From: Chryseosolibacter histidinae
Lineage (GTDB): Bacteria; Bacteroidota; Bacteroidia; Cytophagales; Cyclobacteriaceae
Length of the DNA stretch: 64,000 nucleotides
Reading direction: 5' to 3'
Assembly (NCBI RefSeq): GCF_018598225.1
Contig: NZ_JAHESF010000035.1
Coordinates: 1-64,000, forward strand
Part shown: one piece after another, positions 878-56,144 of the stretch
Layout of the letters: every line of letters begins with the position of its first letter
Position numbering within the stretch: position 1 is the first letter of the stretch
Translations under genes and position numbers: made by a program
Notes under the pieces: generated by a model
What the model saw: only the letters and a program-made list of their open reading frames with translations
Database searches by the model: none
What the model was told of the DNA's origin: nothing

Positions 878-1035
878 GGCGCAAGTGTTGTGCGTATGGC
901 CAGTGCGCAGGCTCACTTGTGCCCATCATCAATGCAGTCTTCAGACCGCACCCCCTCCGGCGCGGAAGTTTCTTCCGGCGCCTTTTAAAAAATCTGCTTC
1001 GTAGCAGGGTCTATTCAGGGGAACTTAGTTCCCCC
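878..1035 (+). repeat. Modular hairpin repeat, full-length copy (modules A-B-C-D-E)
   Basis: Full copy of the repeat family. Module A (878-923) has arms GGCGCAAGTG and CACTTGTGCC. Module B (934-949) is a GCAGTCTTCAGACTGC-like hairpin with one change (ACCGC). Module C (959-982) pairs GGCGCGGAAG with CTTCCGGCGCC around TTT and is followed by TTTTAAAA. Module D (995-1006) is TGCT-TCGT-AGCA. Module E (1018-1034) is GGGGAACTTAGTTCCCC. It fills most of the 355-base gap between divergent genes. Confidence 0.9.
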
Positions 1036-1100
1036 AACACGCAAGCCTTTGGATGTAAGTTTAAGCGCCATTTTATTCATTTACTCCAGTGCGTTTCTGA

Positions 1101-1108
1101 TATGTTTG
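1101..1108 (+). promoter_or_regulatory. Candidate Bacteroidota -7 box TATGTTTG
   Basis: Matches TAnnTTTG exactly, 30 bases before the ATG at 1139, giving a short leader. No convincing -33 TTG is seen at the usual distance, so support is only moderate. Confidence 0.4.
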
Positions 1109-1138
1109 CGAACAATAAAACACAAACCCGCCCGCGTT

Positions 1139-2716
1139 ATGAAGATGAGATTATCAGTCCTTGCCTGTATCTGCCTGGCATCCATGGTGCCCACCCTTAC
1201 ATGGGCGCAAAACGGAGTGGAAATTGGCCAGATGGTAAAACAAACCATGAAAGAAAGCTGGGCCGATATTGAGCCGATCGGGCAGGACGAGCAGGGAGCC
1301 TACTATCTGATGATCCCGTATTCTGAGGTGATCTCCGGTCCTGTGGTGGGTGACAGGGATTTCTACTTTGCGTTGATCAACGAGCACGCAGCGCTGGTCA
1401 ATAAAAAAGTAGCCAACTTCAGCGTTGATGGAAAAGAATCGGACTATGAGTTCACCCAGGAGATCAACGGGAAGATCATGGTGTTTTCCACCGTCGAGGA
1501 GAAAAAGGCAAAGACCGTTACCTTCTATGCGCAGGAGCTTGATAAAAAGAACCTTTCGCTCACTTCACCAAAAAAGGTGGTACAGCTGTCGTTCGCGAAG
1601 CTGAAAAGAGATTATGAAAGAGCGATCTTCAAGGCAGAGCCATCACGTGACAAATCAAAGCTGTTGATCTCCTACAGCCTTGTCAACGATGAGAATTCCA
1701 TCCTTACGTTTGGCTATGTTCTGCTGGATGCGGGTATGAAAGAAATGTATACATGGGATGGCAGCCTGGATATGTCTGACGGTATCTACATGTTCGATCA
1801 GTTCAGAGTCAGCAATAAAGGTGAGGTCTATTTGCTTACGCGATTTTTCGATAACAAAAAGGACTACTCAAAGAACGCGTCCTTAAAAAAGACCAATATT
1901 CTTTCTGCAACCCGGTCGATGGAATACAAGGCGAATTATGATCATCGCATTGTCAGATTTGACAGCAACGGAGGTTCGAAGATCATTCCTGTTCCGGCCG
2001 AAAAAACCTTTTATAATGCGCTTGATCTCGGTATCGGCGCGGATGGAAATCTTCTGCTGATCGGATTCTATTCCGACAACGATGAGAACTTGCCGTCGGG
2101 AGCTGTCTGCCTCAAAGTGAATACAAAAACAAACACCGTTACAGAAACAGGCAAGAAAGACTTTGGCGCTGATTTTTTGATGCCGAGTGATATTTCGATC
2201 AAGAATGTAGGCCTGGCTGCCGGCAAAGACCAGTTTCTAAGCTACCGGTTTATACTGAGCGATATTCAATTCAATAAAAATGGCGGTTACACATTGATCG
2301 GTGAGCGCAATGTAGCGCAGCAGAAAAGAAACGGAAATGTTTTCTACACGGTTAACCACATGGATGACCTTGCCGTCATTGATGTGAACGCGGCAGGCGC
2401 GATCACCGGCGTTTATAAAGTTGAAAAAAGTCAGCAGGCCGTCGATATGGAGATCTTCAACGCCTCGTATTTTTATACGGAATACAACGGCAGCAAATAT
2501 TTCGCCTTCGCCAACATGGGCAAGCCCAACTTTAAAGAGAACGTGCTCGTAAAGATCACCCCCGACGGCAAACAAACCAAAGAGGTCATGTACACCACCA
2601 AAGATGCCGAGGTCACCATACGCCCCAAAGATTGTGTTCTCTACAAAGGCAAAAAGCTGATCATGTACGGCAACAAAAACAACCGGTACGTCCGCTGGGC
2701 CGCGAAGACCTTCTAA
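1139..2716 (+). CDS. Secreted protein of unknown function, 525 aa
   Basis: Not recognised. The start at 1139 is chosen because it opens directly on a signal peptide (MKMRLSVLACICLASMVPTL..TWAQ, cleavage expected after TWA); an in-frame ATG 30 codons upstream would bury it and overlap the repeat zone. The mature part is rich in short beta-strand-like segments with turns of the form DGNLLLIG and SNKGEVYLL, which suggests a beta-propeller-like periplasmic or surface protein. There is no lipobox and no T9SS sorting tail. It is transcribed alone, with a repeat element upstream and a tandem triplet of repeats downstream. The fold is inference. Confidence 0.75.
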   Translation: MKMRLSVLACICLASMVPTLTWAQNGVEIGQMVKQTMKESWADIEPIGQDEQGAYYLMIPYSEVISGPVVGDRDFYFALINEHAALVNKKVANFSVDGKESDYEFTQEINGKIMVFSTVEEKKAKTVTFYAQELDKKNLSLTSPKKVVQLSFAKLKRDYERAIFKAEPSRDKSKLLISYSLVNDENSILTFGYVLLDAGMKEMYTWDGSLDMSDGIYMFDQFRVSNKGEVYLLTRFFDNKKDYSKNASLKKTNILSATRSMEYKANYDHRIVRFDSNGGSKIIPVPAEKTFYNALDLGIGADGNLLLIGFYSDNDENLPSGAVCLKVNTKTNTVTETGKKDFGADFLMPSDISIKNVGLAAGKDQFLSYRFILSDIQFNKNGGYTLIGERNVAQQKRNGNVFYTVNHMDDLAVIDVNAAGAITGVYKVEKSQQAVDMEIFNASYFYTEYNGSKYFAFANMGKPNFKENVLVKITPDGKQTKEVMYTTKDAEVTIRPKDCVLYKGKKLIMYGNKNNRYVRWAAKTF

Positions 2717-2723
2717 CACGGCT

Positions 2724-3154
2724 GGCGCAAGTGTTGTGTGCAAGCCAGGTGTGCAAGCTCACTTGTGCCCCTATTGATTGCAGTCTTCAGACTGCACCTC
2801 CTCTGGCGCGGAAGTTTCTTCCGGCGCCTTTTAAGACCTGCTTCGTAGCATAACCTCTCCGGGGAACTTAGTTCCCCTCAACCGACACAGTACTGCGACT
2901 GGCGCAAGTGTTGTGTGCGGGCCACGCGTGCAAGCTCACTTGTGCCCACCATGATTGCAGTCTTCAGACTGCCCCGTAATCCCCCTCTGGCGCGGAAGTT
3001 TCTTCCGGCGTCTTTTAAAACCTGGTTCGTAGCATAACCTCTCCGGGGAACTTAGTTCCCTCAACCACACAGTACTGCGACTGGCGCAAGTGTTGTGTGC
3101 AAGCCAAGCGCGGAAGCTCACTTGTGCCCACCATGAATACAGTCTTCAGACTGC
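2724..3154 (+). repeat. Tandem triplet of the modular hairpin repeat
   Basis: Three copies in the same orientation, starting at 2724, 2901 and 3083 (period 177-182 bases). The first two carry all modules (A 2724-2769 and 2901-2946; B 2780-2795 and 2957-2972; C 2805-2828 and 2989-3012; D 2839-2850 and 3023-3034; E 2861-2877 and 3045-3060). The third has only A (3083-3128) and B (3139-3154). Copies 2 and 3 share the lead-in ACAGTACTGCGACT. The triplet fills the whole 445-base gap between two convergent genes and contains nothing else I can identify. Confidence 0.9.
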
Positions 3155-3161
3155 CCCGCAA

Positions 3162-4145: not shown

Positions 4146-4231
4146 ATAAATAAAATGAATGAGTTTTGGTTTGGCATAATATCCCCCCATGATTGTCACT
4201 AAACCCGCCGCATAGTCTTGGGCGTCGGGAA

Positions 4232-4239: not shown

Positions 4240-4269
4240 TATCATCAAACCGGACATAAAATTAAAGAA

Positions 4270-4671: not shown

Positions 4672-4713
4672 CATTGAGAATTTTTAATAATAACCGATAA
4701 ACAACAGAACAAC

Positions 4714-5961: not shown

Positions 5962-5968
5962 TTCGGCT

Positions 5969-6039
5969 GGCGCAAGTGTTGTGCGCCAGCCAGCGCGTAA
6001 GGTCACTTGTGCCGTTAATCCATGCAGTCTTCAGACTGC
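5969..6039 (+). repeat. Modular hairpin repeat, A+B form
   Basis: Module A arms at 5969-5978 and 6004-6013; module B at 6024-6039. It lies between convergent genes, and module B provides the stop codon of the minus-strand reductase at 6031-6033. Confidence 0.9.
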
Positions 6040-6642: not shown

Positions 6643-6741
6643 GATCTGATGTATTTATTGCGATACAAATCTCGTCAACAGAATCATGCCTTGGCAGTGT
6701 AAAATGCGACAATCTGGATGGCTGAATACGACAGCCTGGCT

Positions 6742-6813
6742 GGCGCAAGTGTTGTGTGCAGGGTTAGCGCGTGAGGTCACTTGTGCCCCTCATGAACGCA
6801 GGCTTCAGACTGC
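6742..6813 (+). repeat. Modular hairpin repeat, A+B form
   Basis: Module A arms at 6742-6751 and 6778-6787; module B at 6798-6813 with one base change (GCAGGC..). Both neighbouring genes run on the minus strand, yet the element keeps the plus orientation. Confidence 0.88.
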
Positions 6814-6835: not shown

Positions 6836-7489
6836 TCAATACGCGACCTCAACTGTCGACTGATAAATATCGGAATTGTAAATATTCTCCAAAATGAAAT
6901 GGGAGAGGTCTGCCCTGGAAATCACCATGCCGTGATCAAGGTAACGGTTCACTGAAAATCGATAGCGGCCCGTCACTTCAGCATTGGTGAGCCTGGGTGG
7001 ACGCATAATTGTCCAGTCGAGATCGCTCCGTTTAACAATGGCCTCCATTCTTTCCAGATCATCATACATGTTTCGCAATATTCGTTGAAGAAGATGTTTG
7101 GTAGCCATGCGCATCAGAAAATTGAAGGATGGATTGACCTCGAGTCCGGAAGCGGAGATAAAAAACGCACGGGTAACACCGGTGTCCTGCATGCTCTTCA
7201 ATATGTTCTCGCTTCCGCGCGAATACAGTGTTGTTGCCGCGGTGCTGCGGGTGCCGATCGCGGAAATAACAACATTCTTATTGACCAACGATACCCGGTA
7301 GGTCTCAGGTTGCAGAATATCTCCCTGAACGATAGTAAGGTTGGGATGGTGCATTTTTAAGCGCGCAGGATTCCGGACAATAGCCGTCACGTCATGATTT
7401 CTTTGCAACGCCATTTTTACAAGCTGAAGCCCGGTTCCTCCATTGGCTCCGATAACAACAATGGAGCATCGTGAATTTTGTTGATTCAT
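6836..7489 (-). CDS. NAD(P)-binding oxidoreductase, atypical SDR (NmrA/YwnB-like), 217 aa
   Basis: Rossmann-fold protein: IVVIGANGGTGLQLVKMAL at residues about 10-28 is the GxxGxxG dinucleotide site of atypical short-chain dehydrogenases, followed by VTAIVRNPARL and VVISAIGTRST. Later DLDWTIMRPPRLTNAEVTGRYRF fits the NAD(P)H-binding (PF13460-type) group. Such proteins act as redox sensors or small reductases/epimerases; no substrate is indicated. It starts 8 bases after the stop of the membrane protein at 7498-7974 on the same strand, so an operon with it and perhaps the DoxX-like gene is likely. Confidence 0.83.
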   Translation of the reverse strand: MNQQNSRCSIVVIGANGGTGLQLVKMALQRNHDVTAIVRNPARLKMHHPNLTIVQGDILQPETYRVSLVNKNVVISAIGTRSTAATTLYSRGSENILKSMQDTGVTRAFFISASGLEVNPSFNFLMRMATKHLLQRILRNMYDDLERMEAIVKRSDLDWTIMRPPRLTNAEVTGRYRFSVNRYLDHGMVISRADLSHFILENIYNSDIYQSTVEVAY

Positions 7490-7994: not shown

Positions 7995-8090
7995 TCGTAC
8001 CTCGTATCTCGTCCTGGCGCAAGTGTTGTGTGCGAGGCCAGCGCCCAAACTCACCTGTGCCGTCATACCTCGTAAATCGTACCTTTAACG
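7995..8090. repeat. Two 7-bp-period YCGTACC arrays flanking a hairpin repeat
   Basis: First array, 7995-8014: TCGTACC, TCGTATC, TCGTCC. Second array, 8063-8090: TCATACC, TCGTAAA, TCGTACC, TTTAACG. The second runs into the 3' end of the DoxX-like gene and contains its stop codon (8085-8087). Hairpin module A (8016-8061) sits between them. Confidence 0.75.
8016..8061 (+). repeat. Modular hairpin repeat, module A only
   Basis: Arms at 8016-8025 (GGCGCAAGTG) and 8052-8061 (CACCTGTGCC, one change). No module B follows. Plus orientation between two minus-strand genes. Confidence 0.85.
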
Positions 8091-9255: not shown

Positions 9256-9261
9256 CCGCAT

Positions 9262-9333
9262 GGCGCAATGGTTGTGCGCATGGCGAGTGCGTCGCGTCAC
9301 TGGTGCCCACCATGATCGCAGTCTTCAGACTGC
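9262..9333 (+). repeat. Modular hairpin repeat, A+B form, degraded A
   Basis: Module A arms GGCGCAATGG (9262-9271) and CACTGGTGCC (9298-9307) are partly mismatched; module B at 9318-9333 is perfect. It lies between convergent genes. Confidence 0.85.
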
Positions 9334-12576: not shown

Positions 12577-12590
12577 ATTGACTGGCGCCT

Positions 12591-12725
12591 GGCGCAAGTG
12601 TTGCGCGTAAGGATGTGCTGTAGCTCACTTGTGCCCAAATCAACCTGCACCACTGGCGCAAGTGTTGTGTGTGAGATTGTGCGGCGGCTCACTTGTGCCT
12701 TAAACCACCGCAGTCTTCAGACTGC
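12591..12725 (+). repeat. Modular hairpin repeats: one A copy, then one A+B copy
   Basis: First module A at 12591-12635, second at 12655-12699, module B at 12710-12725. All in plus orientation, ending 14 bases before the next gene. Confidence 0.9.
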
Positions 12726-13651: not shown

Positions 13652-13664
13652 GCGCACGGCTGCT

Positions 13665-13736
13665 GGCGCAAGTGTTGTGTGTAAGCAGAGCGCGCAAGGT
13701 CACTTGTGCCCCAATTAAACTCAGTCTTCAGACTGA
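13665..13736 (+). repeat. Modular hairpin repeat, A+B form
   Basis: Module A arms 13665-13674 and 13701-13710; module B 13721-13736 with paired end changes (TCAGTC..GACTGA), so the hairpin is conserved although the sequence changed on both sides. This compensatory change supports a structural role. Confidence 0.9.
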
Positions 13737-14711: not shown

Positions 14712-17700
14712 ATGTTTAGAATACCTGCCCTCGCCATTACCTGGCTCTGCCTGACGTTCATTGCAACCGTTGCGCAGACCCCCCTTAAAAATTTCCGTTC
14801 TATTTCATTGACTTATGCGCTGGGTGATAAGGTCTTTGCTTGCGCTGATGATGGCAACATCGGCAATGAGCTCTGGGTGTCAGATGGCACACCTGAGGGT
14901 ACTAAACTGCTGAAAGATTTCAATGTTGGTTATGGAGCTTCCGGCATAAGCAAATTCATTACCTTCAAGGGAAAAGTTTATTTCGGCGCCTATACATCTC
15001 AATATCAGTCTGAGCTTTGGTATAGTGATGGTACTACGAGCGGCACCGTAATGGTGGCCGATCTTACGCCTCCCAATGATTATTACGGGGGCACATCGCC
15101 ACAGCATTTCACGATCTTTCAAAACCATCTGTACTTCACTTCCGCCGATGGCAAACTGTACAAGACAACGGGTGAACAAGGGAACGCAACCGTTGTAGAC
15201 CAGCTCAGCTATACTGGCCGGATAGCGCATGTTACCTCCGCTGCAGGAAAGCTCTACTACTACAAAGGCAGCGACATTTTATACTGGACCGATGGCACTG
15301 CCACCGGTGATTTCGATCTGCCACTGGATATCGAAGACACGTACTTCAAGGGACTCTTCACCACGGGGGGGCAGCTCTTTGCCATGCGGGGCAGCACTTA
15401 CGACAACCACATCAAGCTCTATGCCCTCAACCATGCCACCAATGTATGGACAAAAGTTTTCGACGTGAAAACGCCCACGTATGGTAATCATGAGATCACC
15501 AACTTCACGGCCATGGGCGACAAGCTGTTTTTTACACTCCGCAAAGATTATGACAACGTTGCAGAGACCGAAGAGTTGTGGGTCACCAATGGTACCTTGG
15601 CGGGAACATCCATGCTCAGGTCATTTGCCTGGCAGCGGCACATGTCAGAATCCGGTATGGAGAATTTTAAGGTCTTCAACAACGCAGTTTATTTCAGAAG
15701 TGGATATCCAACCAAGAGCGCCCTTTGGAAATCGGATGGAACAGTAGCCGGTACAGCCAAAGTGCATGACGTGGAGATCACGCGCCCCTACAATCTTCCC
15801 AATGAACCGGTCATTGCCAATGACAGATTGTATTTCGCCGGCACGCCTGTAGAATATGGCGCCCCCAGCCTGTGGTCAACGGATGGAACCACCGAAGGCA
15901 CAAAGTTTGAAATGGCCCTGTCTACCAATTTGGGCGGCTTGCCTCACTGGTTCTCCAGCAATGGCAGCCTCGTTTATTTCGTCACGGCTGAGCAGTTTGC
16001 AGCCACCCTGTGGAGTACAGCGCCCGCCCCGGAGATCAATGTGAAAATAGTCGAAACCGGTCAAACCGTTCCAATCCAGGCATCCGTGCCATTTTATAAC
16101 ACGCCCATAAACGGGTGCAGCTTCAGAACCCTGGAGATTTCGAATGATGGTAAAAAAGCGCTGCCTTTGGGCTCGGTCCAGGTCATCGGAAGCGATTTTG
16201 GATTGGAAGGAATCCTTCCGGAAGTGTTGCAGCCGGGAGAAAAAACCAGCATCAAAGTATGGATGCAGCCTGTGAGAGCCGGAAGTACAAGTGGCACTCT
16301 CACCATCTACTCCGGCGACGATAATGAAGGTAAGATCGTGATACAGCTTGCCGCCATAGTGAGTGAAACGCAAAAGGGTTTTTGTGATTCGTTTAAAAAC
16401 AATTTGCTCCGTTACATCAAGGCTTCCGAAGCGGAAAAGCCGATAGCACTATCGAATCGTGCCGTCATGGAACTTCAACCCGAAGGAACTGTCGTCGGTA
16501 CGTTCTCGATACCCGGAGCGCAGGCAGGCACTGCTTACGCGTTGGTATCAGGTGATGGTGATACCCATAACAAGGAGTTCTCTATTCTGGGCGCCCAGCT
16601 GAAAACGAAAAAGAAATTCGTATTCGGTGACAGGGACTATTACACCATCCGGGTAAGGGCCACCCTTCCTGACCAGCAGGTGAAAGAAGCTTTGTTCACC
16701 ATCGAGATTCAAAACCAGCTCACCGCCTCCATAGAAAAAGATTGTGCGATACAAGGTGAAAGATTGGATTACGGGCTCACCGATATTGCCGTGAATTCAG
16801 AAGGTAAACTTTTTGTCATCACGTCGATGGGAGAGATCCATCGGTCCGACGACGATGGTCATTCCTGGGTCGTTACCAGCATGGGATACAACACCCGTTT
16901 GTCAAAGATCATCTTTAAAGGTAACGCAGGCTATGTGTTGGGTGATAATGGGATGCTAAAATCCGATGACAACGGCTACAATTGGTCACAACTTTATGTG
17001 CCCTTTTCCACAACCAGTGGCGGTTACAGCGCTTTCTTTTTAGACGAGGCCAATGGATATGTCGCGGCCGGAGGAGGCCTTTATTATACAGCCGATGGTG
17101 GCAAAACCTGGGAGGTACGCAAGTCTGGCGGTTCATTCAATGACAATTATAACAGCCTCTGGTTTGAAACAAAGGATAAAGGCTTTGCTACTACGGGCTA
17201 TGACCTTGTCAAAACCACCGATGGTGGCAAAAGCTGGGAGAAGATCAACCTCAGTTCCCTCGGATTTCTGAGTGGCTTTATCGGCGTTCACTTTCTGAAT
17301 GCAAATGAAGGATTCCTGCTGACCTACTCGGGATTCTTCTATACAAGTAACGGCGGCGCGGCCTGGCAAAAGGTAGAGCTCCAGACCAACGTAAGCCCCC
17401 GGCTGGTGAGGTTCATCGACGATAAAAAAGGCTATATGCTCGGATCGGGCATTTTATACAGGACAACAGATGGTGGTAAAAACTGGACCTTGAATTATGT
17501 GTCAGGCGAAACAACTACCGGGCTGGTCATTCATAATAACAAATTGTATGCAACGCAGGCCCCTGCAAACTCGTGGTCCGGCAATGGCGGAAGGTCGCTG
17601 AGCGTCAGCGCCGACGATGGCAAAACATGGCAACAGTTACAGGCCCTGGGCAATAGTACTCATTACGCCGTTTCGTTCCCGACACCATCAACGGGATTTA

Positions 17701-19268
17701 TCTGTTCGTCTTACCAGAATTTCAAAACCAGTGACGGAGGCATCACCTGGAAGCCTGTCAGCTGGACCACGCAGGTTGGCACCGCGCAGTTCCTCGATGA
17801 AACAACCGCTTTGTTTTCGGATAACAAAAGCATCTACCGCTCTACCGATGGAGGAGAAACCATCACCGAGGTCTTTACACCGGTTGTCGATTATAACGAT
17901 TATAAGCCGCTGGGCGAGTTGTATGCGGCTACCCGGGACCTTGTCTTCACGTATAACTATGGCTCGTCGATCTATCGCAGCACCGACGCCGGACTCACAT
18001 GGACCTACATGCCTTTCGGCGAATCGATCACCATCATAGACATGTATTTCCTCTCTGCTGATCTTGGATTCGTCATGGACTTGTTCGGATCTGTGTACAA
18101 GACAACCGATCGCGGCGTAAGCTGGACCAGGGTCTATACCCGCGATCCGCTGTCAAGCATCGTATTCAGGTCGATATGCTTTGTGAACGAACAGACCGGA
18201 TACAAGGGCGGAAAAAATTTCAGCAAAACTACCGATGGTGGCGTTACCTGGCAGAACATCTTCGTGCAGTTCAATGGCGAAATTCAGGAATTGAATTTTA
18301 TGACCGAGCAGCATGGCTACGTTATCGTCAACTCCGGCTCATTGTATGAGACAACGGATGGCGGTGCAACCTGGGAACAGTTGTATTTGTGGGGCGCGGA
18401 GCAACCCACCGCCGTGGATTTCCGGGATGACAATATTTACCTCGTAGGCGAGGAGGGATACGTGGCACGATACGAGAACAAACGTGCCAAACCCCTGCGC
18501 CCCGGATACATCTCCGGAAGAGAGGTTGTTTGCGCCGGCGATGTTCAGACCTATTCGCTGCCGGTCAATTATGGTGGAAACTATTCCTGGGATATCCCCG
18601 GGCTACCGGTAAAGGATAGCCCTTCATCTGTAGAGCTCTATTTTAAGAACGCCGGTGATTATACACTGAACGTTAGATCTTACAATGAGTGTGGTGCAAG
18701 CGAAACCAGAACCCTGACCGTGAAAGTCGAAGACATCGACGCGCCGGTGATCATGGGCGAAACAACCGTAGCAGCCAACTCCGAGCAAATATATGCCATC
18801 GAAAACCGTGATGCAGATAATCTTTACGCGTGGTCGATTGACAAGAGCACAAGTTATACAGTCGATGACCAGAACGATCAGGTTTCCGTAAAGTGGCCCA
18901 AAGCGGAAGTAGAAACACAGGGAACTATTCGGGTATTTGCCACCAACACCCGCAGCGGATGCCGGAAACGTGGCGACGATGTCACCGTGAATGTATTGGT
19001 TATGGTGGGCGTCGAACAGAACCTTGCCGAAGCTATCTCGGTGTATCCCAATCCTGCTGACAATGTGATCAACATCGAGTCCAGCACGCTTCCGTTACAT
19101 ATGGCTGAACTGCACGACCTCAACGGAAAAGTGATCTTCAGAAGGGCACTGCAGCCCTTCCGTGGCGATGATCGGATCAACGTTGCCCAGTTGCCTCAGG
19201 GATTGTATGTGCTGAAACTGTACGGCCAGGATAATATCGTGATCACCAAAAAAATCGTAAAACAATAA
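14712..19268 (+). CDS. Giant multidomain T9SS cargo protein with YCF48/BNR-like repeats, 1518 aa
   Basis: Secreted surface or extracellular protein. The start at 14712 gives a signal peptide (MFRIPALAITWLCLTFIATVAQ). In order: residues about 30-450, repeats of the ELWVSDGTxxGTxxL type; about 455-555, a HYDIN/SPD-2-like Ig domain (LEISNDGKKALPLGSVQV, SGTLTIYSGDD); about 590-680, a cadherin-like domain; about 690-1260, some dozen BNR/YCF48-type beta-propeller repeats with the TTDGGKTWE/SDDDGHSW Asp-box; about 1280-1430, PKD-like modules; final about 80 residues, a type A T9SS sorting domain (ISVYPNPADNVINIES .. GLYVLKL..KKIVKQ). Likely adhesive or glycan-binding; no catalytic motif is visible. 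The next gene starts 62 bases later and is also a T9SS cargo. Confidence 0.88.
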   Translation: MFRIPALAITWLCLTFIATVAQTPLKNFRSISLTYALGDKVFACADDGNIGNELWVSDGTPEGTKLLKDFNVGYGASGISKFITFKGKVYFGAYTSQYQSELWYSDGTTSGTVMVADLTPPNDYYGGTSPQHFTIFQNHLYFTSADGKLYKTTGEQGNATVVDQLSYTGRIAHVTSAAGKLYYYKGSDILYWTDGTATGDFDLPLDIEDTYFKGLFTTGGQLFAMRGSTYDNHIKLYALNHATNVWTKVFDVKTPTYGNHEITNFTAMGDKLFFTLRKDYDNVAETEELWVTNGTLAGTSMLRSFAWQRHMSESGMENFKVFNNAVYFRSGYPTKSALWKSDGTVAGTAKVHDVEITRPYNLPNEPVIANDRLYFAGTPVEYGAPSLWSTDGTTEGTKFEMALSTNLGGLPHWFSSNGSLVYFVTAEQFAATLWSTAPAPEINVKIVETGQTVPIQASVPFYNTPINGCSFRTLEISNDGKKALPLGSVQVIGSDFGLEGILPEVLQPGEKTSIKVWMQPVRAGSTSGTLTIYSGDDNEGKIVIQLAAIVSETQKGFCDSFKNNLLRYIKASEAEKPIALSNRAVMELQPEGTVVGTFSIPGAQAGTAYALVSGDGDTHNKEFSILGAQLKTKKKFVFGDRDYYTIRVRATLPDQQVKEALFTIEIQNQLTASIEKDCAIQGERLDYGLTDIAVNSEGKLFVITSMGEIHRSDDDGHSWVVTSMGYNTRLSKIIFKGNAGYVLGDNGMLKSDDNGYNWSQLYVPFSTTSGGYSAFFLDEANGYVAAGGGLYYTADGGKTWEVRKSGGSFNDNYNSLWFETKDKGFATTGYDLVKTTDGGKSWEKINLSSLGFLSGFIGVHFLNANEGFLLTYSGFFYTSNGGAAWQKVELQTNVSPRLVRFIDDKKGYMLGSGILYRTTDGGKNWTLNYVSGETTTGLVIHNNKLYATQAPANSWSGNGGRSLSVSADDGKTWQQLQALGNSTHYAVSFPTPSTGFICSSYQNFKTSDGGITWKPVSWTTQVGTAQFLDETTALFSDNKSIYRSTDGGETITEVFTPVVDYNDYKPLGELYAATRDLVFTYNYGSSIYRSTDAGLTWTYMPFGESITIIDMYFLSADLGFVMDLFGSVYKTTDRGVSWTRVYTRDPLSSIVFRSICFVNEQTGYKGGKNFSKTTDGGVTWQNIFVQFNGEIQELNFMTEQHGYVIVNSGSLYETTDGGATWEQLYLWGAEQPTAVDFRDDNIYLVGEEGYVARYENKRAKPLRPGYISGREVVCAGDVQTYSLPVNYGGNYSWDIPGLPVKDSPSSVELYFKNAGDYTLNVRSYNECGASETRTLTVKVEDIDAPVIMGETTVAANSEQIYAIENRDADNLYAWSIDKSTSYTVDDQNDQVSVKWPKAEVETQGTIRVFATNTRSGCRKRGDDVTVNVLVMVGVEQNLAEAISVYPNPADNVINIESSTLPLHMAELHDLNGKVIFRRALQPFRGDDRINVAQLPQGLYVLKLYGQDNIVITKKIVKQ

Positions 19269-19330: not shown

Positions 19331-22300
19331 ATGAAGAGAATTTTACTCCTGACCGGTATATCGTTATTGATGAATGTGCAATATGCAACGGCACAGAATT
19401 TTTCAGCTACCCCCATCAGCTTCAGCAACCTTGGCTCAGTCTGGGGAGGCCTCGAGTGGGTGGATCTTGACGGAGACGGAGACCTCGATGCCGTGACAGC
19501 GAACTGGGTTGACAAAGTCAAAACGTTTAAAAATGACAATGGTACGCTCATACCGATGGGTGTGGGATTGGGAAATCAACCCTTCAGCTATAACGATCAG
19601 CTCAGACTGGTCGACTTTGATCACAATGGTTACATGGACGTGCTTTTATCCGGTGGAGGTAAGGTCCACGCCCTGCTCAACCAGGGCAATTTCGATTTTG
19701 TTCTGCAGCCAACGGGAATAGATTTCGTTTCCACCAGGTCAACACCCCTGGATTGCATCGATATCGACGCAGACGCAGACCTTGACATCATCCTGGACGG
19801 CAAGATATTCCTGAATACAAACGGCACATTTGCTGAATCGATCGTCGCATTTCCGGAGATCAGTAAATACATATGGGGCGATATCAACAACGATGGCATT
19901 GTCGACCTGATAGACGTCAACTATAACACCCTCGTCCCGTACATCGGCCAGGGCAATGGTGTTTTTACCAAAGGCACAGAATTCGGCAGCATCCGGAACG
20001 ATGGCACCTTCTTTCTCGTCGATGCGGATGGAGACGGAGACCTTGACATACAGGTATCCGAATCGAATTATACAAGATCCATTTTCCGCAATAGCTTCAA
20101 ACAAAATGGGAAAGCGGAATTCGAGCGTGCCTATACCTTCCCGGTATCGGGCGGCATTGCAACGGTGTCACCAGGCGACGTCAACAGCGACGGACTGGTA
20201 GATTTCGTCATATACGGGCTTTCCAACATTAACAATACCACGATGGTATTGTTAAATACCTCTTCGGGAGGTCAGATGTCCTTCACTACCGGCAACTTTA
20301 TGCTGGCGGCAGCGTTAGCGTCGAATCCCAAATTTGTAGATTTTGACAGTGACGGCGACCTCGACATCCACCTCAGCACATCGAACCCTTCGGGTGTGGG
20401 GGGCATTCATAAAATTTATGTGAATGAACAGGCTTCACCCACCACCCCGGCCCCGGAGGTACCGGCAAACCCGCAGACCATCAGTGGCGACGACGTGACC
20501 CTGAAATGGGATGTTGCACCCCATACATTTTATTCCATAGAGATCGAGCGGAACGGCGTCACAACCTTACCTTCCTCATCGATGGATGATGGAACGCTGA
20601 TGATCCCATTTCCGGCACAGTCCGCCGTGATCGCTGAGCACAAGCTGAAAAACCTCCCCGCGGGAAATTACCGGTGGCGGGTACAGGCCGTCGATTATGC
20701 TTCGCACGCTTCGGCCTTTACAGCTTACCAGGATTTTACCGTCGACGCGGGGCCGCTCATCATGCTGAGCAGCAATAATTTTACCGAGGTAAATTTGTCA
20801 TACCAGCAGGTCGGCATCTTTACAGGCTTTGCCATCTATAGGCGATCTACGAAGGAGCCATGGAAAAAACTTTATGAAGTACCCATGACGATGACGTCAT
20901 TCGTTGACAACACCCTTGTTTTGAACGAGACCTATGAATATTGCGTCAGGTCAGTCAACGGAACATCATACTCTGCGCCAAGCATAGTTCTCAGTCATTA
21001 CGCGGGACAGTTCAAAGAAGCCGCCTTTGCCAGAAGAAATCCAAACATCATCGTGGGAGGCGGTGGTGTGGCTGATATCGACTCAGACGGTGATTACGAT
21101 CTTCAGGTTATCGGGCGCGTCGATTCAAAGAACGAAACTGCCATGGACAACGATGGAACCGGTAATTTTTCAATGAAATCGTACTTGCCGAATACGGGAA
21201 CGGATTGGGACAAAGCGTACAGCGGATTGCTTTTCATGGGCGATATGGACAGCGATGGCGACATCGATATGTGTGTCCGGACAGGAGATACCTGGGGCAT
21301 GAAGATCCAGGTGCTCTCCAACAACGGCGGCGTCTTTTCAAAATCGTATGAATCATCTGCCATCAACTACATGTACGATTATGAGTTGAAAGATTTTAAC
21401 AACGATGGTTTGATCGATATCTTTTTTGGTGCGGCTGTCTCGAGCGGTAGTGGATACTACTATAAATTTTTGATCCAGAAACGCGACGGCAGTTTCAGCA
21501 GCGAAACACTTTCCATTGCGCCGGAGCTCTCCGTGGGACGATGGTTTAAAACCGTAGACATCAACAATGATGGCTTCCTCGACCTTTTTTTTGGCGGAAC
21601 GGATTATCCCAGCACTAAAGCCATGCTGGCCATCAGCCTGAATGGCCGTGCGTTCCAGGTAAAAGAAACCACGATCTTTTCTTATGCTGATATCATCTTC
21701 CAGGACCTCAATGCTGATGGCTTCCTGGACCTGATGTACAAGCACGCCGACAGCAGACTGGTGATGCACCTTGGGCAGGGTAACGAAGTTTTCGGAGACC
21801 CTGTCTTTTTCAGAGCATTCTACCTCAATGAAACAAGGCTCGCATCGGCTGACCTCGACTTCAACGGCTGGCCGGAGCTTATCCTTTACGATGGCTATAA
21901 CATAGGTGTCATGCAAAACAATGGCAACGGAGCTTTTGAAGTTGCGCCCTATAAATTCCCCGGCAGGTGGGGCACGTATGTTCACCTGTTGGATCTTGAA
22001 AACGATGGTGACGTCGACATTGTGAGAATGGCTAACGATGATCAGCATCAGGGATTGAGCAGTGTGTACACCAATCAGTGGAAATCAGGTCTTCGAACCA
22101 ACACACCGCCCACGGCACCCGGCGCTGTGACATCTACGATCGGAAATGGCACGGTGAAGATCCAATGGCAGCCATCCACAGATAATACCACACCGTCAAA
22201 GCTTATCAGCTATAACGTGCTGATCGTTGATGCCAATGGTAAATCCTGGGTACATCCAGGCACCAACGCATCAGGTACATGGCGAAATGTTACCGGCCAG

Positions 22301-43527: not shown

Positions 43528-43662
43528 CAATACTGATGAATAGTTTTCAATTTTCCAAACCGGGTGTGACTAACCGGCCAATTTTTTTTCATAACTGATC
43601 AAAATGTTGTGAAAGGGCAGGCGGGAAGCTGGCGGATGTAAATCTTTGCGTCCTCTCGTGCT

Positions 43663-43789
43663 GGCGCAAGTGTTGTGTGTAGGGTTGTGGGAGGCTCACT
43701 TGTGCCCTCTCTGGCGCGGAAAGTTTCTTCCGGCGCCTTTTTCTTTCTGGTTTCGTAGCCCAGGTCTTTCCAGGGGAACTTAGTTCCCC
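43663..43789 (+). repeat. Modular hairpin repeat lacking module B (A-C-D-E)
   Basis: Module A 43663-43706, C 43713-43737 (one extra A), a diverged D about 43748-43760, E 43773-43789. Both neighbours lie on the minus strand but the element keeps plus orientation. It and a CTTTGCG end-unit (43814-43832) fill the 346-base gap with the GntR operator. Confidence 0.9.
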
Positions 43790-43813
43790 GGCTGGCGGAG
43801 TAGGCGGGGTGCA

Positions 43814-47023: not shown

Positions 47024-50000
47024 ATGACAATGAAAAAAACAGTTCGTTTTCTGTTGCTGACCGTCGCAGCAGCTACTTTATCCATTCATGCACTGGCCCA
47101 GGGTGTGCTCTGGGGCATGACCTACGAAGGCGGGTCCGAATACGGGATGGGCGGCGGTGGTGTCATCTTCAAAACCAACGCAGATGCCTCCTCTTATATG
47201 TCAGTGCAAAAAGTATTTCAGTTCGACTACCCGGGAGATCGCCCCAAGTCGATGGTAATGGCACCCAATGGCAAGTTCTATGGCGTTACCAATTATGGTG
47301 GCAGATACCTGTCAGGCGTTTTATTTGAGTACGATCCCGCTACTGGGGCATACTTTGCCGTGCATCACTTTCAGCAGTCCACCGGTTATTTGCCAAACGA
47401 AGGCATCATGGTGGCCAGCAACGGCAAATTATATGGCACCACGCCATACGGTGGTTCTGACGGTCGTGGCGTGATCTATGAATTCGATCCCGCCGCAGGA
47501 ACATATCATGTGATGTTCACATTCCTGTCGTCATTCGGAAACCAGCCGCGATCAGGGCTTATCGAGGCATCCAACGGAAAATTTTATGGCACAGCACCCT
47601 GGGGAGGTTCCGGTATCTATGGTGTGATCTACGAATTCAACCTCGCCAGCAGAACCGCTATTATAAAGCATAATTTCACCACGGCCACCGGGTCAGCTCC
47701 CGCGGGTCCCGTGATGCAGGCAAGCAATGGAAAGTTGTATGGCATGACCCCGGAAGGCGGCGCAAACGATCTTGGTGTGTTGTATGAATATGATCTGCTA
47801 ACGTCAACCTATACAAAGCATGCGGACCTGACAGAGGCTTCGGGCAGAAATCCTTATGGCGGCCTGACCGAGTCGACCAGCAACGGTAAATTGTACGGTC
47901 TGACCCAATGGGGCGGGGCTAACGGTGAAGGAGCCATCCTCCAGTTCGATCCGGCAACGGGTGTTTTTCAATCGGTGGTGGCGCTTGGCCTTACGCTGGG
48001 AGGCAGGCCCGTGTACGGCTTTACAGAGGCACCCAATGGAAAATTGTATTGTGTCACAAATATCAGGTTACTGGAGCTCAATCCTGCTACTGTAAGCGTG
48101 ACACAGCGACACGAATTCCCTTCGGAAGGGACCAACAGCGGTGGCACCCTGACAAAGGCATACAATGGTAAGTTATACGGCATAAGTCCCGTCGGAATTT
48201 CGGGGCCGCGCGGAACCATATTTTCATTCGACTACACCACCAACACATTCGAAACAAAGATCGATTTTAACAAGGCTACGAACGGGGCGTATCCGCTTGG
48301 AAATCTTGTGAAGGCAGGCAATGGAAAATTATACGGCACGGTGTCGAGAGGAGGCCCGAACAACCTCGGCTTTATTTTCGAGCTCGATCCTGCAACGGGC
48401 GCAGTCACGAAAAAGATCGACTTCACCGGAACGAATGGCGCCACACCTTCCGGAGGTATGTCGCTCGCCAACAACGGAAAATTGTATGGCATGACCACCA
48501 ATGGCGGGAGCCAGGGACTGGGCGTTCTCTTCGAGTACGATCCTGCCTCCAATACGTACACGAAGAAAAAAGACTTTACCTCTCCCAATGGACAAAATCC
48601 CACAGGCGACCTCACACTGGCATCGAATGGGAAATTTTACGGATTGCTTCCCACCAATTTTGAAGTTCCTTCCGGCTACCTGTTCGAATACGATCCTGCT
48701 ACTGACGCATTTCAGTCAAAGATCTCTTTTAATTCAGCTGTTGATGGAAGGATGCCGGACGGCACGCTCACGCAAGCGGGTAATGGAAAACTTTATGGCA
48801 CCACCGCCGCAGGAGGCACCAATCAGAGCGGAGTGCTTTTTGAATATGATCCGGTCACGAATACTTACACCAAAAAAATCGATTTTTCCAGCAGTGCCGA
48901 TCTGTCCGAGTCATCCATTGGCACGCGTCCTGTCGGGAAGCTTGCGCTTGCTGCCGACGGGAAGTTATATGGCATGACCATGTTTGGCGGTTACATGGTT
49001 AATTTCAACAACACTACCGGGACGATTTTTGCTTTCGATCCGGCAACAGGTGCCCTTACCCGCAAGCACCGGTTTGGTTGTGCCTCGGGCGCATGTTACG
49101 CCGACGGATTCAACCCGCGTGGCAGCCTCGTGCTTGCGCCGGATAACAAACTGTATGGCATGACCTCTTCGGGAGGACAGTCGTCACTGTATGGCGTAGC
49201 CTTTCAATTCGATCCGGCCACGTCAGTATATACGAAGAAATTCGATTTCACGCAGGCGAATGGAGCAAGTCCGAGGTCGAACGCTTTTGTTTTCCTTGCG
49301 GGGATGAAGGAGCAGTCCATCACCTTTGAGGCACCGGCAGCCAAAACGCTCAGCGACGCAACATTCAACCTCTCCGCTACCGCATCCTCCGGTTTGCCAG
49401 TGACGTTGGTAAGCGCAGACCCTGCTGTGGCAACCATCTCCGGAAACACAGTGACCCTCAAAGGCGCTGGCAGCACGGTCATCACGGCTTCTCAGCCTGG
49501 CAACAGCGAATATAGCCCTGCGGTGAGTGTAGAGCATACGTTGGAGGTTTCGAAATCCACGCAGACCATCTCGTTTACGTTGGAGGGTTCCAAATCCTTC
49601 GGCGATGCGCCCTTCGCATTGCAGGCAACTTCCAGCGCGGGATTGCCGGTAAGCTACACGAGCACCAACACCGAGGTGGCAACTGTCAGTGGCAACACCG
49701 TGACCGTTGTAAGCCCCGGAACAACGACCATTAAAGCGAATCAGGCTGGTAACGATATTTTTGCTGCAGCAGCGGAAGTGTCGAAGACATTCACGGTGGC
49801 GAAAGGCGTGCAGACCATTACTTTTGATCAATCCCTGGCTAAAAAATTCACCGAAGTATCGTTGACCCTCACGGCAACCGCATCCTCCGGCTTGCCCGTT
49901 ACTTATCAGAGTGCCAACCCGGCCATCGCCACCATCAGCGGAAATGTCGTCACCTTTGTTGCCAAGGGCCAGGTAACCATCACGGCATCACAACCTGGTA

Positions 50001-51039: not shown

Positions 51040-51041
51040 CT

Positions 51042-51300
51042 GGCGCTAGCGTTGTGTGCGCGTCAGCGCTGTTGGTAACGGCTGGCGCAAGTGTTGTGCG
51101 TAAGGCAGTGCGGTGGCCCCTATGGCTGGCGCAAGTGTTGTGTGTAGGGCTGTGGGAGGCTCACTTGTGCCCCGAAATAAGTGAGTCTTCAGACTAAGGC
51201 CCACTGCGCCGCCTTTGCGTGACTACCTGGCGCGGAAGTTTCTTCCGGCGCCTTTTAAAACCTGGTTCGTAGCAAAGTCTTTCCAGGGAACTTAGTTCCC
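51042..51300 (+). repeat. Compound modular hairpin repeat (two truncated A copies, then A-B-C-D-E)
   Basis: A truncated A (51042-51051), a second A lacking its right arm (51084-51093), then a full set: A 51128-51171, B variant 51184-51195 (core AGTCTTCAGACT), C 51229-51252, D 51263-51274, E 51286-51300. It contributes most of the 477-base gap before 51517. Nothing else is clear there except a CTTTGCG array. Confidence 0.88.
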
Positions 51301-51360
51301 CTGAACGGGTGCAGTTCAGATTGCCTCCGGTGATCTAATACCTTTTGCCTTTTAAAAAAC

Positions 51361-51516: not shown

Positions 51517-51999
51517 ATGAAGTATTTAACCCTCGCCCTTTTGGCACTTTGCAGTTTTGTGTTTTTCACTTGTAATACAAACAAGAATTCTGTTTCAAAC
51601 GAAGCCGATATTGAAGCGTTTCAAAAACTCAGGGCTGACTTAAGCCTGGCTTTTCGTAATGGTGATGTGCAAACAGTAACGTTGTATCATCACCCCAATG
51701 TTGTGAAGGCCCTTTCATATGATAATTTGCTGGTAGGACGAGACGCCAATATTAAAAACCTGAAGGGAGCTTTTGAAGCCTATAGCCTCAACTTTAAAGA
51801 GCATCAGATAGAGAGCTTTGAGATCCACGGAAACACAGCAACTGAAATTTCCAGTTTTACAATAGAGGGAACTCCCAGGGGAGACGGCAAACCATTTACA
51901 TTTAAAGGTCGCTCCATGGTGTTATATATTCGCTATAGTGAAAGTCCGGCTGGCTGGGCTTTAATTCGAGAAATGATCCAAACACCCGTCGGAGAATAA
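51517..51999 (+). CDS. NTF2/SnoaL-like lipoprotein, 160 aa
   Basis: Exported small protein (signal MKYLTLALLALCSFVFFTC, lipobox FFTC). The mature part has the cone-fold layout of NTF2/SnoaL-like proteins: IEAFQKLRADLSLAFRNGDVQTVTLYHHPNVV, with an ALSYDNLLVGRDANIKNLKGAFEAY helix, and beta strands ESFEIHGNTATEISSFTIEGTPRGDGKPFTFKGRSMVLYIRY ending WALIREMIQ (quoted as landmarks). Function in the envelope unknown. Monocistronic; 119 bases follow before the USP-like gene region. Confidence 0.75.
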   Translation: MKYLTLALLALCSFVFFTCNTNKNSVSNEADIEAFQKLRADLSLAFRNGDVQTVTLYHHPNVVKALSYDNLLVGRDANIKNLKGAFEAYSLNFKEHQIESFEIHGNTATEISSFTIEGTPRGDGKPFTFKGRSMVLYIRYSESPAGWALIREMIQTPVGE

Positions 52000-52824: not shown

Positions 52825-52841
52825 CGACACGATCCAAAGCT

Positions 52842-53768: not shown

Positions 53769-53769
53769 G

Positions 53770-53864: not shown

Positions 53865-53959
53865 TATCCAGAAATTCTAATAATACTCTAATCTCTTAAC
53901 CGACCGCTCTTGATGCTACCGGCTTTTTTTAATTGGTGTTGTACATTACCTTTTCGGCC

Positions 53960-54646
53960 ATGAAAATACTGTTGATCGAGGACGAGCCCAACGTGATCTC
54001 ATTTGTCAGGCGTGGCTTGATGGAAGCGCGTCATGAAGTATCCGTTGCCATGGATGGGCTGACCGGCCTGCAGATGATTCGTTCTGCTTTGCCGGATGTT
54101 GTGCTGCTCGACGTGATGCTTCCCGGAATGAATGGTGTGGAGCTGTGCAGGAAAGTAAGAAGTCAGAACATCGGTGTTCCCATCATCATGCTGACCGCCC
54201 TTGGCACGTCGGAAAATATTGTGATGGGACTTGAAACCGGCGCGGATGATTATATTACCAAGCCATTTAAGTTTACGGAGCTGCTGGCGAGGATCAGCGC
54301 CGTTGTGCGAAGGTCTCACGGAAAAAGCGCGGTTGATAATTCGGTGATTCAGGTAGACGATCTCGCACTCGATACGCTCGGTAAGCTGGTGACCCGGTCC
54401 GGGGAACGGATCAACCTGACCGCCACGGAGTATAACCTCCTTGAATTTCTGGTGAAGAACAAGGGGCGTGTATTCTCCCGGCTGGAAATACTGGAAAAAG
54501 TATGGGATATAAATTTCAACACGAACACGAACGTTGTTGACGTATACATTAACCATGTCAGGCGAAAGATCGACAGGCCGGGAGCAAAGAAGTTGATCCA
54601 TACGGTGGTGGGGATGGGTTACGTGCTTCGGGAAGACGCAGACTAG
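53960..54646 (+). CDS. OmpR-family response regulator, 228 aa
   Basis: Two-component response regulator. The receiver (1-120) has acidic pair Glu7/Asp8, phospho-acceptor Asp51 (VVLLDVMLPGMNG), Thr in MLTALG, and Lys in DDYITKPF. The C-terminal OmpR winged helix (about 130-225) shows NLTATEYNLLEFLVKNKGRVFSR and VDVYINHVRRKID..TVVGMGYVL. Start 53960 (MKILLIEDEP) is the usual position. It is followed after 6 bases by its sensor kinase. Confidence 0.95.
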   Translation: MKILLIEDEPNVISFVRRGLMEARHEVSVAMDGLTGLQMIRSALPDVVLLDVMLPGMNGVELCRKVRSQNIGVPIIMLTALGTSENIVMGLETGADDYITKPFKFTELLARISAVVRRSHGKSAVDNSVIQVDDLALDTLGKLVTRSGERINLTATEYNLLEFLVKNKGRVFSRLEILEKVWDINFNTNTNVVDVYINHVRRKIDRPGAKKLIHTVVGMGYVLREDAD

Positions 54647-54652
54647 CATTGT

Positions 54653-56026
54653 ATGAAGATCAGAACGAAGATTGCGTTGGTCTTTACGCTGATGACAGGT
54701 ACCATTCTCTTCCTGCTCAGCGCTTTTGTGTATGTTGTTTCTTCCAAGCACATGGAGGAGCACTTTCTCACGCGTTTGAAAGTTTCAGCATCCATTGCCG
54801 CCGAAAGTGAATTTGAAGATGAGACTAACCTTGTTCGCGAGATCAGGGACCGTCACTTACAGAAATTGCGACGGGAGAAAGAATGGTTTTTTGAAGATAA
54901 CAGTTCTTTCCCGCGTGAGGTGCTGAAAGCGCTTCCCCGTGCGCCAACATCCTTCATTGAAAATTTGATGGATAGGGGGAGTGCTGCATCACGCGAAGGT
55001 TTTGAATACTATACCGGATTCCGGTACCAGTCTGCCAGCACCAACGGGAAGCAGTATTTTGTGATCGCTAGCGCCTACGACGAAGATGGAGAAGAGAATC
55101 TGCTCTTTTTGCGAACGATGCTGATCATTGGATTCTCGGTAAGTTGTGTTCTGGTTTTCGCCTTGGGACGGCTCTTTGCCAACCGGATCATGAAACCCAT
55201 CGCCGACATCATCTCTAAAGTGCATGAGATCACGAAAACCAACCTCAGTGAGCGTCTCGGTTCCGCGAAAGGCAACGATGAAATTGCAGAGATGGCGGCA
55301 ACATTCAACGACATGCTTGACCGCCTCGAGACCACCTTTGAGTTACAAAGCAACTTCATTGGAAACGCCTCACACGAGTTGAACACGCCGCTTACCGCCA
55401 TCCTGGGCGAGGTCGAAATCATACGTAGCGCTCCCCGGAGACCTGAAGAGTATGTAGAATCATTGGGCATCATAGATTACGAAGCGAAGAAGCTGCGCGA
55501 CGTTACATCGAGCCTGCTCCGGCTGTCCAGCATCAGCTACGAAGGTAAGAAGCAGAAGATCGAGCGCCTGCAGCTCGATGAGCTCCTGATGGATATCAAG
55601 ATCAATTTTGACCGGCGAATGCCCGCGAATAAAGTAAGAATGCTTGTTCAGGCACAGGAAGGCAATACAACCGCTTATTGCATCGTGGGCTCCAGTGTGT
55701 GGCTTGAGTTGGCAATTACAAATGTGATTCAGAACAGCATCAAGTATAGCGACAACAAAGAAGTGCTCGTAACCCTTTCATCCAGCGAACAACATTGTTT
55801 CGTCGAGATCTCCGATCAGGGGATCGGCATTCCGGAAGAAGACATGCGTTACGTCTTTGAGCCCTTCTTCCGTGGAAGCAATACCGGTCCCTACAAAGGA
55901 TACGGCATCGGACTCCCCCTCGCTGCACGCATTGTAAGGCTTCACGCCGGAGAGTTGCAGATCTTTTCAAAACCCAATACAGGTACAAAAGTGACGTTAA
56001 AATTTAACGCATCGCGGGATCTTTAA
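54653..56026 (+). CDS. Two-component sensor histidine kinase with HAMP, 457 aa
   Basis: Membrane kinase partner of the preceding regulator. TM1 at about residues 8-29 (IALVFTLMTGTILFLLSAFVY), a periplasmic sensor of about 130 residues with no recognised family, TM2 around 163-185 (LLIIGFSVSCVLVFALGRLF-like), HAMP about 185-235, HisKA with His241 (IGNASHELNTP), HATPase with NVIQNSIKYS, DQGIGIPEED and GYGIGL. The input signal is unknown. It starts 6 bases after the regulator stop. Confidence 0.95.
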   Translation: MKIRTKIALVFTLMTGTILFLLSAFVYVVSSKHMEEHFLTRLKVSASIAAESEFEDETNLVREIRDRHLQKLRREKEWFFEDNSSFPREVLKALPRAPTSFIENLMDRGSAASREGFEYYTGFRYQSASTNGKQYFVIASAYDEDGEENLLFLRTMLIIGFSVSCVLVFALGRLFANRIMKPIADIISKVHEITKTNLSERLGSAKGNDEIAEMAATFNDMLDRLETTFELQSNFIGNASHELNTPLTAILGEVEIIRSAPRRPEEYVESLGIIDYEAKKLRDVTSSLLRLSSISYEGKKQKIERLQLDELLMDIKINFDRRMPANKVRMLVQAQEGNTTAYCIVGSSVWLELAITNVIQNSIKYSDNKEVLVTLSSSEQHCFVEISDQGIGIPEEDMRYVFEPFFRGSNTGPYKGYGIGLPLAARIVRLHAGELQIFSKPNTGTKVTLKFNASRDL

Positions 56027-56030
56027 CCCT

Positions 56031-56144
56031 GGCGCAAGGTGTTATGCGTAAACCTGTGCGACGGCTTTTGCCTGGCGCAAGTGTTGTGCGTAAGCCCAGC
56101 GCGCAAGGTCACTTGTGCCTCAATACCTGCGGTCTTCAGACTGC
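56031..56144 (+). repeat. Modular hairpin repeats: partial A, then A+B
   Basis: Partial A arm at 56031-56040 (GGCGCAAGGT), second A 56074-56119, B 56129-56144. In the second A the inner stem TTGTGCG/CGCGCAA is best preserved, giving a two-tier hairpin. It lies between the kinase and the convergent M1 peptidase gene. Confidence 0.88.

Follow-up and report, generated by a model that had tools for sequence, protein, structure and literature searches.

The first 64,000 nucleotides (hereafter, the window) of a 70,176-bp contig of Chryseosolibacter histidinae (C51; NZ_JAHESF010000035.1, positions 1-64000), part of a draft genome of 8.04 Mb in 122 contigs, carry a cluster of short hairpin repeats, all facing the same way, which we relate here to repetitive extragenic palindromic (REP) sequences and REP-associated tyrosine transposases (RAYTs). 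The cluster was picked for its striking look. The repeats were searched with covariance models of two unit types, AB (model R2) and CDE (model R1), with the best 150 candidates scored per genome; the E-values of both models are rough. On C51, 14 AB and 5 CDE matches were found, all 19 on the plus strand, and after merging of copies less than 700 bp apart, they form 11 sites, every one of them on plus (p about 0.001 if the sites were independent coin flips). The initial annotation had listed 14 copies on a single strand, all of which are indeed present and, together with two additional 5' fragments (at 51040 and 51082), lie on the plus strand, and it had described stretches free of repeats; again, no match was found at 13.8-43.6 kb, nor anywhere from 56.2 kb to the last base of C51 (70,176). 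It had also treated the elements as one repeat with modules A to E; the hairpin modules are real, but they make up two separate units, AB and CDE, which are often adjacent in this window.

At the left end, an AB unit (876..949; 83.3 bits) is directly followed on its 3' side by a CDE unit (956..1037; 78.6 bits). A tandem array comes next, in which AB (2722..2795, with a stop codon 6 nt before it), CDE (2802..2880), AB (2899..2972), and CDE (2986..3064) units are followed by the AB unit at the array end (3081..3154). Farther along, AB units lie between convergent genes (5967..6039) and between minus-strand genes (6740..6813), and an A hairpin that has lost its B partner (8014..8082; 37.1 bits) likewise has minus-strand genes on both sides. 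AB units are located at 9260..9333, 12653..12725, and 13663..13736, with an A hairpin lacking B at 12589..12648 (40.2 bits). Beyond the repeat-free stretch, another A hairpin without B (43661..43709; 41.0 bits) abuts a CDE unit (43710..43792), and two 5' fragments of the A hairpin (51040..51079, a pattern match with 2 mismatches, and 51082..51123, an exact pattern match) precede an AB unit (51126..51197) and a CDE unit (51226..51304). The AB unit at 56072..56144 is the last copy found on C51. As had been noted earlier, every kind of gene context is represented: four of the 11 sites lie between convergent genes, one between divergent genes, three between two plus-strand genes, and three between two minus-strand genes (two context genes, 6836-7489 and 51517-51999, were taken from the open reading frame [ORF] list because the heuristic gene caller missed both). 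The window has no Rfam match at the gathering threshold and no transfer RNA or transfer-messenger RNA gene that could have served as an insertion target.

Each unit comprises two hairpins, within about 75 nt in AB and about 80 nt in CDE, and follows a common plan: it starts with CT, at the base of a long imperfect hairpin, and a short hairpin comes after. The AB unit consists of CTGGCGCAAGTS, a variable inner stem, SACTTGTGCC, a spacer of about 10 nt, and a short hairpin around AGTCTTCAGACT; the CDE unit consists of CT[GA]GCGC, GGAAGTTTCTTCC, one bulged base, GCGC, a spacer around TTCGTAGC, and a short hairpin around GGAACTTAGTTCC. The 5' edge is sharp at CT in both AB (C in 46 and T in 47 of 48 units) and CDE (C in 45 and T in 46 of 52), and 44 of the 48 AB and 30 of the 52 CDE units start with CT[AG]G, which stands at the 5' foot in place of the GT[AG]G of canonical REPs. 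Outside the units, no strong target-site consensus was detected, the only signal being a weak C-richness beside the ends. Covariation is seen in the CDE hairpins, where 4 of the 16 predicted pairs have changes on both sides; the same is true of 2 of the 14 pairs of AB. Across the genome, the two units are mostly separate: AB is directly followed by CDE at 5 of the 52 CDE matches, on C51 and C98 only, in addition to the overlapping pair at 43661/43710.

Folding as single-stranded DNA (ssDNA) favours the A-to-B strand of AB over its complement in 45 of 48 units (48 of the 49 AB matches and 52 of the 53 CDE matches were counted, the weak overlapping R1 match C21:211434 being left out throughout). 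Within the window, for example, the plus and minus strands fold at -19.7 and -16.9 kcal/mol, respectively, in the unit at 5967, and at -15.2 and -10.1 kcal/mol in the unit at 13663. The same strand is the more stable one in all 40 AB units examined, of 74, in Parachryseolinea silvisoli. Because orientation is set by the consensus itself, these counts attest that the asymmetry has been kept and do not amount to 48 independent tests. The CDE unit displays a weak asymmetry, with the A-to-B strand more stable in 34 of 52 units, less stable in 17, and tied in one. The fourth stem pair of AB, a G·T pair in all but one (G-C) of 29 aligned units, labels the strand, since the complementary strand then has an A·C mismatch at that place. 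A stem of the form GGnnCRAG...CTYGnnCC was also found at 33 of 80 RAYT loci of other Bacteroidota; read toward the gene, 81 of the 82 third pairs are Watson-Crick, and the fourth pairs comprise 51 wobbles, 22 wobble complements (A·C or C·A), 8 Watson-Crick pairs, and one pair of another kind. The strand-asymmetric fold of AB agrees with expectation for a single-strand transposase that reads one of the two strands.

Candidate enzymes are encoded in the same genome. Four genes match Pfam Y1_Tnp, and three of these, two on C45 and one on C63, are full-length members of the RAYT family. The C63 and C45 proteins (P0001 and P0002) score 105 and 106.5 bits with the NCBIfam model REP_Tyr_transpos (NF047646), above its cut-off of 80, and 26.6 and 25 bits with the IS200 transposase model, under its cut-off of 55. 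Compared with the motifs NH[LIV]H and YIH[QN]NP, P0001 has NHIH and YVHNNP and P0002 has SHVH and YIHNNP, so that each protein is one letter off, and the HxH and Y residues are invariant in all 20 aligned sequences. Sequence searches with the RAYTs recovered no solved structure at E <= 0.001; the fold search did so, the best PDB match to the AlphaFold2 model (mean predicted local distance difference test score, 91.8) being 4er8, the structure of a RAYT in complex with a REP hairpin. In keeping with the REP/RAYT systems invoked in the initial annotation, the RAYT genes are flanked by the very repeats in question, AB on C45 and CDE on C63. The two C45 genes have identical coding parts and each lies between inverted AB units, in two RAYT units (122063-122833 and 128242-129010; L027) that are 6.2 kb apart in the same orientation. 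These units are 97.9% identical over 777 bp and have unrelated flanks; the homology begins with base 1 of the left AB unit and stops about 7 nt or less from the outer end of the right AB unit, and the three differences in the 614-nt interior all lie outside the gene. Judging from this comparison of sequences, the pair looks like the outcome of a single insertion of a whole RAYT unit, which was probably mobile as a unit recently. On C63, CDE units lie upstream of the RAYT gene only. Among RAYT loci in general, hairpins of at least 10 bp occur within 400 bp of the gene on either side at 65 of 72 loci and on both sides at 30 of 72, compared with 25 of 53 and 1 of 53, respectively, when the same test is applied at 3 kb. 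No relic of a RAYT was found on C51 at E <= 0.1. The fourth Y1 gene (C36:40157-40486), which encodes 150 aa with the motif YIERQHEHH, resembles subclass 1.2, and the AB/CDE pattern was not found in the surrounding 18 kb; in addition, C81:25266-25661, in a 224-aa open frame, is a distant relative of the RAYT alignment (37.7 bits).

The closest relatives of these RAYTs come from Cyclobacteriaceae and Chryseolinea-type Bacteroidota. For a tree of 68 RAYTs (73 of the 80 RAYT loci were used as input, less 7 of the 73 that contain stops), flank types were assigned by patterns and, for the two C. histidinae RAYTs, by hand, with 24 of the 68 rows showing neither type. CDE-type flanks were found in 12 rows, 10 of which fall in a single clade that also holds the C63 protein (support 99/98), and the C45 protein falls in a 16-row clade in which all flanks are of the AB type (support 99/93). 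The CDE label requires 2 changes on the tree (shuffled mean, 11.3; 0 of 500 shuffles as low); the AB label, with 11 changes (shuffled mean, 22.9), is less clean. Among the RAYTs compared, repeat type thus follows the tree, with AB and CDE each belonging with a different RAYT. At E <= 0.001, the AB model matches 6 of 24 genomes and the CDE model 2 of 24, the genome of C. histidinae included in both cases; close inverted pairs account for several of the AB matches in G001 and G002, two genomes of the same genus, and in G003.

Several known systems bear comparison with these repeats. IS200/IS605 elements (IS608 and ISDra2) have hairpin ends that are recognized in a strand-specific manner and share the Y1 fold, but the scores given above place both RAYTs far under the IS200 cut-off. 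Escherichia coli has several hundred REP units, compared with about 100 in C. histidinae, where CT[AG]G replaces GTAG and each unit has two hairpins. The E. coli TnpAREP and its y/z REPs are similar in the HUH/Y1 fold, the imperfect hairpin that differs between strands, and the CT at the 5' end; that enzyme is described as requiring the stem irregularity, recognizing the single-stranded REP and not the iREP, and cutting at CT (PMC8266576). In Pseudomonas fluorescens SBW25, inverted REP pairs (REPINs) are considered the replicative unit and singlets defunct remnants; these are likewise linked to RAYTs and extragenic, with inverted pairs near RAYTs and some regionally uniform tandem arrays, five forward near 2 Mb and six reverse near 4 Mb (PMC3116915). 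In C. histidinae, by contrast, single-orientation sites dominate (53 of 64), and no inverted pair was found among the 11 window sites, with mixed sites numbering 11 of 64 genome-wide. The two RAYTs belong to group 5 (TnpAREP subclass 2.6), which is mostly from Bacteroidetes and for which atypical structures, identified by manual inspection, with copies elsewhere in the genome have been reported (Quentin et al. 2018; PMC6006769). A Y1 RAYT-type gene, cognate flanking repeats, and dispersed non-coding copies are all found here, and the resemblance to subclass 2.6 REPtrons extends to the enzyme family, the atypical flanking structures without GT[AG]G, and the genomic copies; a difference is that C. 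histidinae has two copies of a RAYT unit. The passages of that paper dealing with subclass 2.6 give neither a consensus nor a two-hairpin anatomy, and they mention no strand-asymmetric wobble, no start with CT[AG]G, and no pattern of orientation (PMC6006769). In the open-licence literature searched (subscription papers lie mostly outside it), neither a consensus for these repeats nor a report of orientation coherence in Bacteroidota was found. The system is thus of a known kind, with an undescribed anatomy and an unusual orientation pattern.

Genome-wide, the units form 64 sites (merged at less than 700 bp), of which 53 have a single orientation (34 plus and 19 minus; contig direction is arbitrary) and 11 are mixed. 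Uniform orientation, as seen in the window, does not extend to the whole genome but tends to be a property of the neighbourhood. Of 29 pairs of adjacent single-orientation sites, 24 are concordant (shuffle mean, 15.4; p 0.00085); when C51 is left out, 14 of 19 are (p 0.028), and most of the concordance concerns sites no more than 10 kb apart. A comparison of kinship used 44 of the 49 AB units, the rest being short or lacking fetched sequence; among the 35 having another site within 100 kb, 26 have their nearest relative outside their own site within that distance (shuffled mean, 4.8; maximum, 14), and all 26 of these relatives, 16 of them outside C51, share the orientation. For CDE, the nearest relative lies within 100 kb in 15 of 27 cases (shuffled mean, 1.6; maximum, 8) and has the same orientation in 12 of 15, so that the two types together yield 38 of 41 in the same orientation. 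In one 12-kb region of C78, AB units of subtype X are on plus in 3 of 3 cases and those of subtype Y on minus in 4 of 4, with the two intermixed; because the subtypes are mixed and yet each faces one way, orientation goes with the lineage rather than with the region. These patterns of sequence similarity suggest that the repeats spread locally and keep their orientation.

Genes do not account for the orientation in this genome. Context was obtained for 88 of the 101 elements, the remaining 13 lacking fetched context, on contigs chosen for carrying elements and with gene calls from our own heuristic; none of the 88 elements lies inside a called gene. The 61 sites in 2.16 Mb (merged at less than 400 bp) comprise 19 between convergent and 11 between divergent genes, 14 co-directional with and 9 opposed to same-strand flanking genes, and 8 of mixed orientation. 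With 14 of the 23 single-orientation sites between same-strand genes co-directional and 9 opposed, orientation does not follow transcription here, as the initial annotation had held. With respect to replication, a GC-skew term at third codon positions (GC3), corrected for coding strand and mostly steady in sign along contigs, exceeded two standard errors in 18 of 25 blocks; orientation matches its sign in 11 blocks and is opposite in 7 (blocks on different contigs may be neighbours). A regression on skew reveals no effect at any distance tested for CDE-only sites and a non-significant effect for AB-containing sites.

The 74 AB matches of P. silvisoli, of which 40 were fetched and examined in windows picked for single elements, behave differently. 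Adjacent sites are concordant in 35 of 48 cases (p 0.0007), and agreement is 7/8 at 2-10 kb, followed by 15/18, 21/29, and 34/56 at 100-300 kb, and then 29/76 at 0.3-1 Mb and 35/54 beyond. In this genome, the suggested link to replication may apply, in that orientation tracks strand composition: the A-to-B strand is C-rich in 33 of 40 windows and 13 of 15 blocks, with a GC3 effect of -0.189 (window permutation p 0.0002; block permutation p 0.0018). The skew weakens from -0.130 directly beside the element, where it is strongest, to -0.071 at 0.5-1 kb, and 13 of 19 background windows some 12 kb off have the same sign (a 20th had no block sign). Gene pieces lie on the strand of the element in 51 cases and on the other strand in 34. 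On contig C6 (1452-1541 kb; L251-L255 and L281-L284), GC skew switches sign, with values of about -0.10 at 1482 kb and about +0.15 at 1511 kb. Strand-specific behaviour thus appears in both genomes, in different forms, and we do not claim a single rule for both.

We propose, with roughly even chances of being right, that the repeats are non-autonomous REP-like elements of the two group-5 RAYTs, HUH enzymes with a single catalytic tyrosine, and spread locally in a strand-faithful manner. In this scenario, the RAYT would most likely recognize the A-to-B strand alone, folded in ssDNA, for instance at a replication fork, would cut the unit at CT, and would copy or move it into nearby ssDNA of the same strand. 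Insertion of this kind implies that new copies come to lie close to the parent and keep its orientation; a neighbourhood would then fill with a local lineage of one orientation, and C51 would be one such colony.

Several observations weigh against this proposal. Both the CT cut site and the role given to the stem irregularity are borrowed from other RAYT groups, and in Stenotrophomonas the group-3 enzyme requires a perfect stem (PMC8266576); because E. coli and Stenotrophomonas differ in their stem needs, the analogy is with one RAYT group and not with all. The CDE fold is only weakly asymmetric (34 versus 17). The AB units of C51 are of a GTG subtype that has no RAYT beside it in this genome, although such units do flank RAYTs at two loci of the comparison set (L161 and L167). 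Concordance without C51 is modest (14/19) and is absent beyond 10 kb, with 1 of 3 at 10-30 kb and 3 of 7 at 30-100 kb, and all three exceptions to shared orientation among close relatives come from C32, where these face opposite ways. In P. silvisoli, orientation follows strand composition, the gene bias (51 versus 34) indicates that genes may play a part, and a comparison of 20 elements gave no sign of local kinship (identity, 0.640 for near and 0.622 for far elements), so that orientation coherence there needs another cause.

An alternative in which the replication fork itself fixes orientation, with insertion into one template strand only, one facing per replichore, and later scrambling by inversions, would fit the C-rich strand of P. 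silvisoli and its background windows, and C51 has the sign expected from that genome (r -0.057, elements on plus). However, the rule of P. silvisoli fits 7 of the 18 blocks of C. histidinae, where the split of 11 to 7 and the regression on skew lend the fork no support; subtypes X and Y face opposite ways within one region of C78, and the skew domains of P. silvisoli change sign over about 30 kb (C6), a distance too small for replichores. If, as is usual, the leading strand is G-rich, the A-to-B strand of P. silvisoli would be the leading-strand template, which is not what IS608-like insertion into the lagging-strand template would predict. We consider this explanation rather improbable; of the original alternatives, replication strand or insertion of ssDNA, it is the latter that holds up in C. 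histidinae, in that an ssDNA-handling enzyme of the REP/RAYT type is the likely mover. A few ancestral insertions happening to face one way could also produce such a cluster, considering that it was picked as striking and that orientation is mixed elsewhere, but the low probability for 11 sites and the recurrence of weaker coherence without C51 and in P. silvisoli make this improbable.

Copying of larger blocks would keep orientation trivially, and tandem arrays that include flanking sequence do occur within sites, at 2.72-3.15 kb in the window and on C56 (53 kb), C11 (4 kb), and C100 (157 kb). Between distinct C51 sites, however, the 1.5-kb flanks are unrelated, the only match at E <= 1e-6 being one of 42 nt (identical matches were disregarded as overlaps when the windows lay less than 3 kb apart), so that segmental duplication of the 11 sites is rejected, and tandem or segmental duplication as the general route of spread is very improbable. 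The least probable of the readings considered is that the units are RNA-level signals under selection, either terminators or stabilizers of mRNA 3' ends. Their exclusion from called genes, the 3' end of a flanking gene at 42 of the 53 single-orientation sites, and the G+C hairpin followed by TTTT in the window CDE copies would agree with such a role; yet orientation ignores transcription and does not follow the upstream gene, and 11 of the 53 sites lie between divergent genes. Among 19 terminator-like matches in 1-14 kb (14.8 expected in shuffles), two fall in units, one on plus at 2993 and one on minus at 994-1007.

Other repeats were observed alongside these units. A second repeat, CGTACCTCGTA, occurs in the window at 7996, 9229, 9243, and 36480, with ends at most 8 nt from the elements at 8014 and 9260, and has 92 copies in 2.31 Mb of this genome, 49 forward and 43 reverse. 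A palindromic repeat, CCCTTTGAGGG/CCCTCAAAGGG, is found on C52 (L030) at about 11540, 11850, and 13400, with 37 copies in 2.31 Mb and none in the window. Large ORFs with internal repeats visible as direct DNA repeats occupy 17082-18376, 19460-23709, and 47256-49230 and, by eye, look TDGGKTW-like, FG-GAP-like, and NGKLYG-like, respectively, the last often with a 153-nt spacing.

To our knowledge, no REP sequence has been caught moving. How such sequences spread is described as poorly understood (PMC8266576). With a few well-separated subfamilies, two cognate enzymes, a sharp-ended duplicated RAYT unit, and a readable record of orientation, C. histidinae renders this spread testable, the distance and orientation of daughter copies relative to the parent being measurable quantities. 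The conserved wobble and the CT start furnish concrete recognition hypotheses for a RAYT group described, in the passages that treat it, as having atypical structures only (PMC6006769). As a tentative generalization, somewhat short of an even chance, group-5 REPs may be copied from and into nearby ssDNA of the same strand, such that orientation is inherited and each region harbours its own co-oriented lineage. If so, maps of REP orientation would record where, and on which strand, the DNA was single-stranded.

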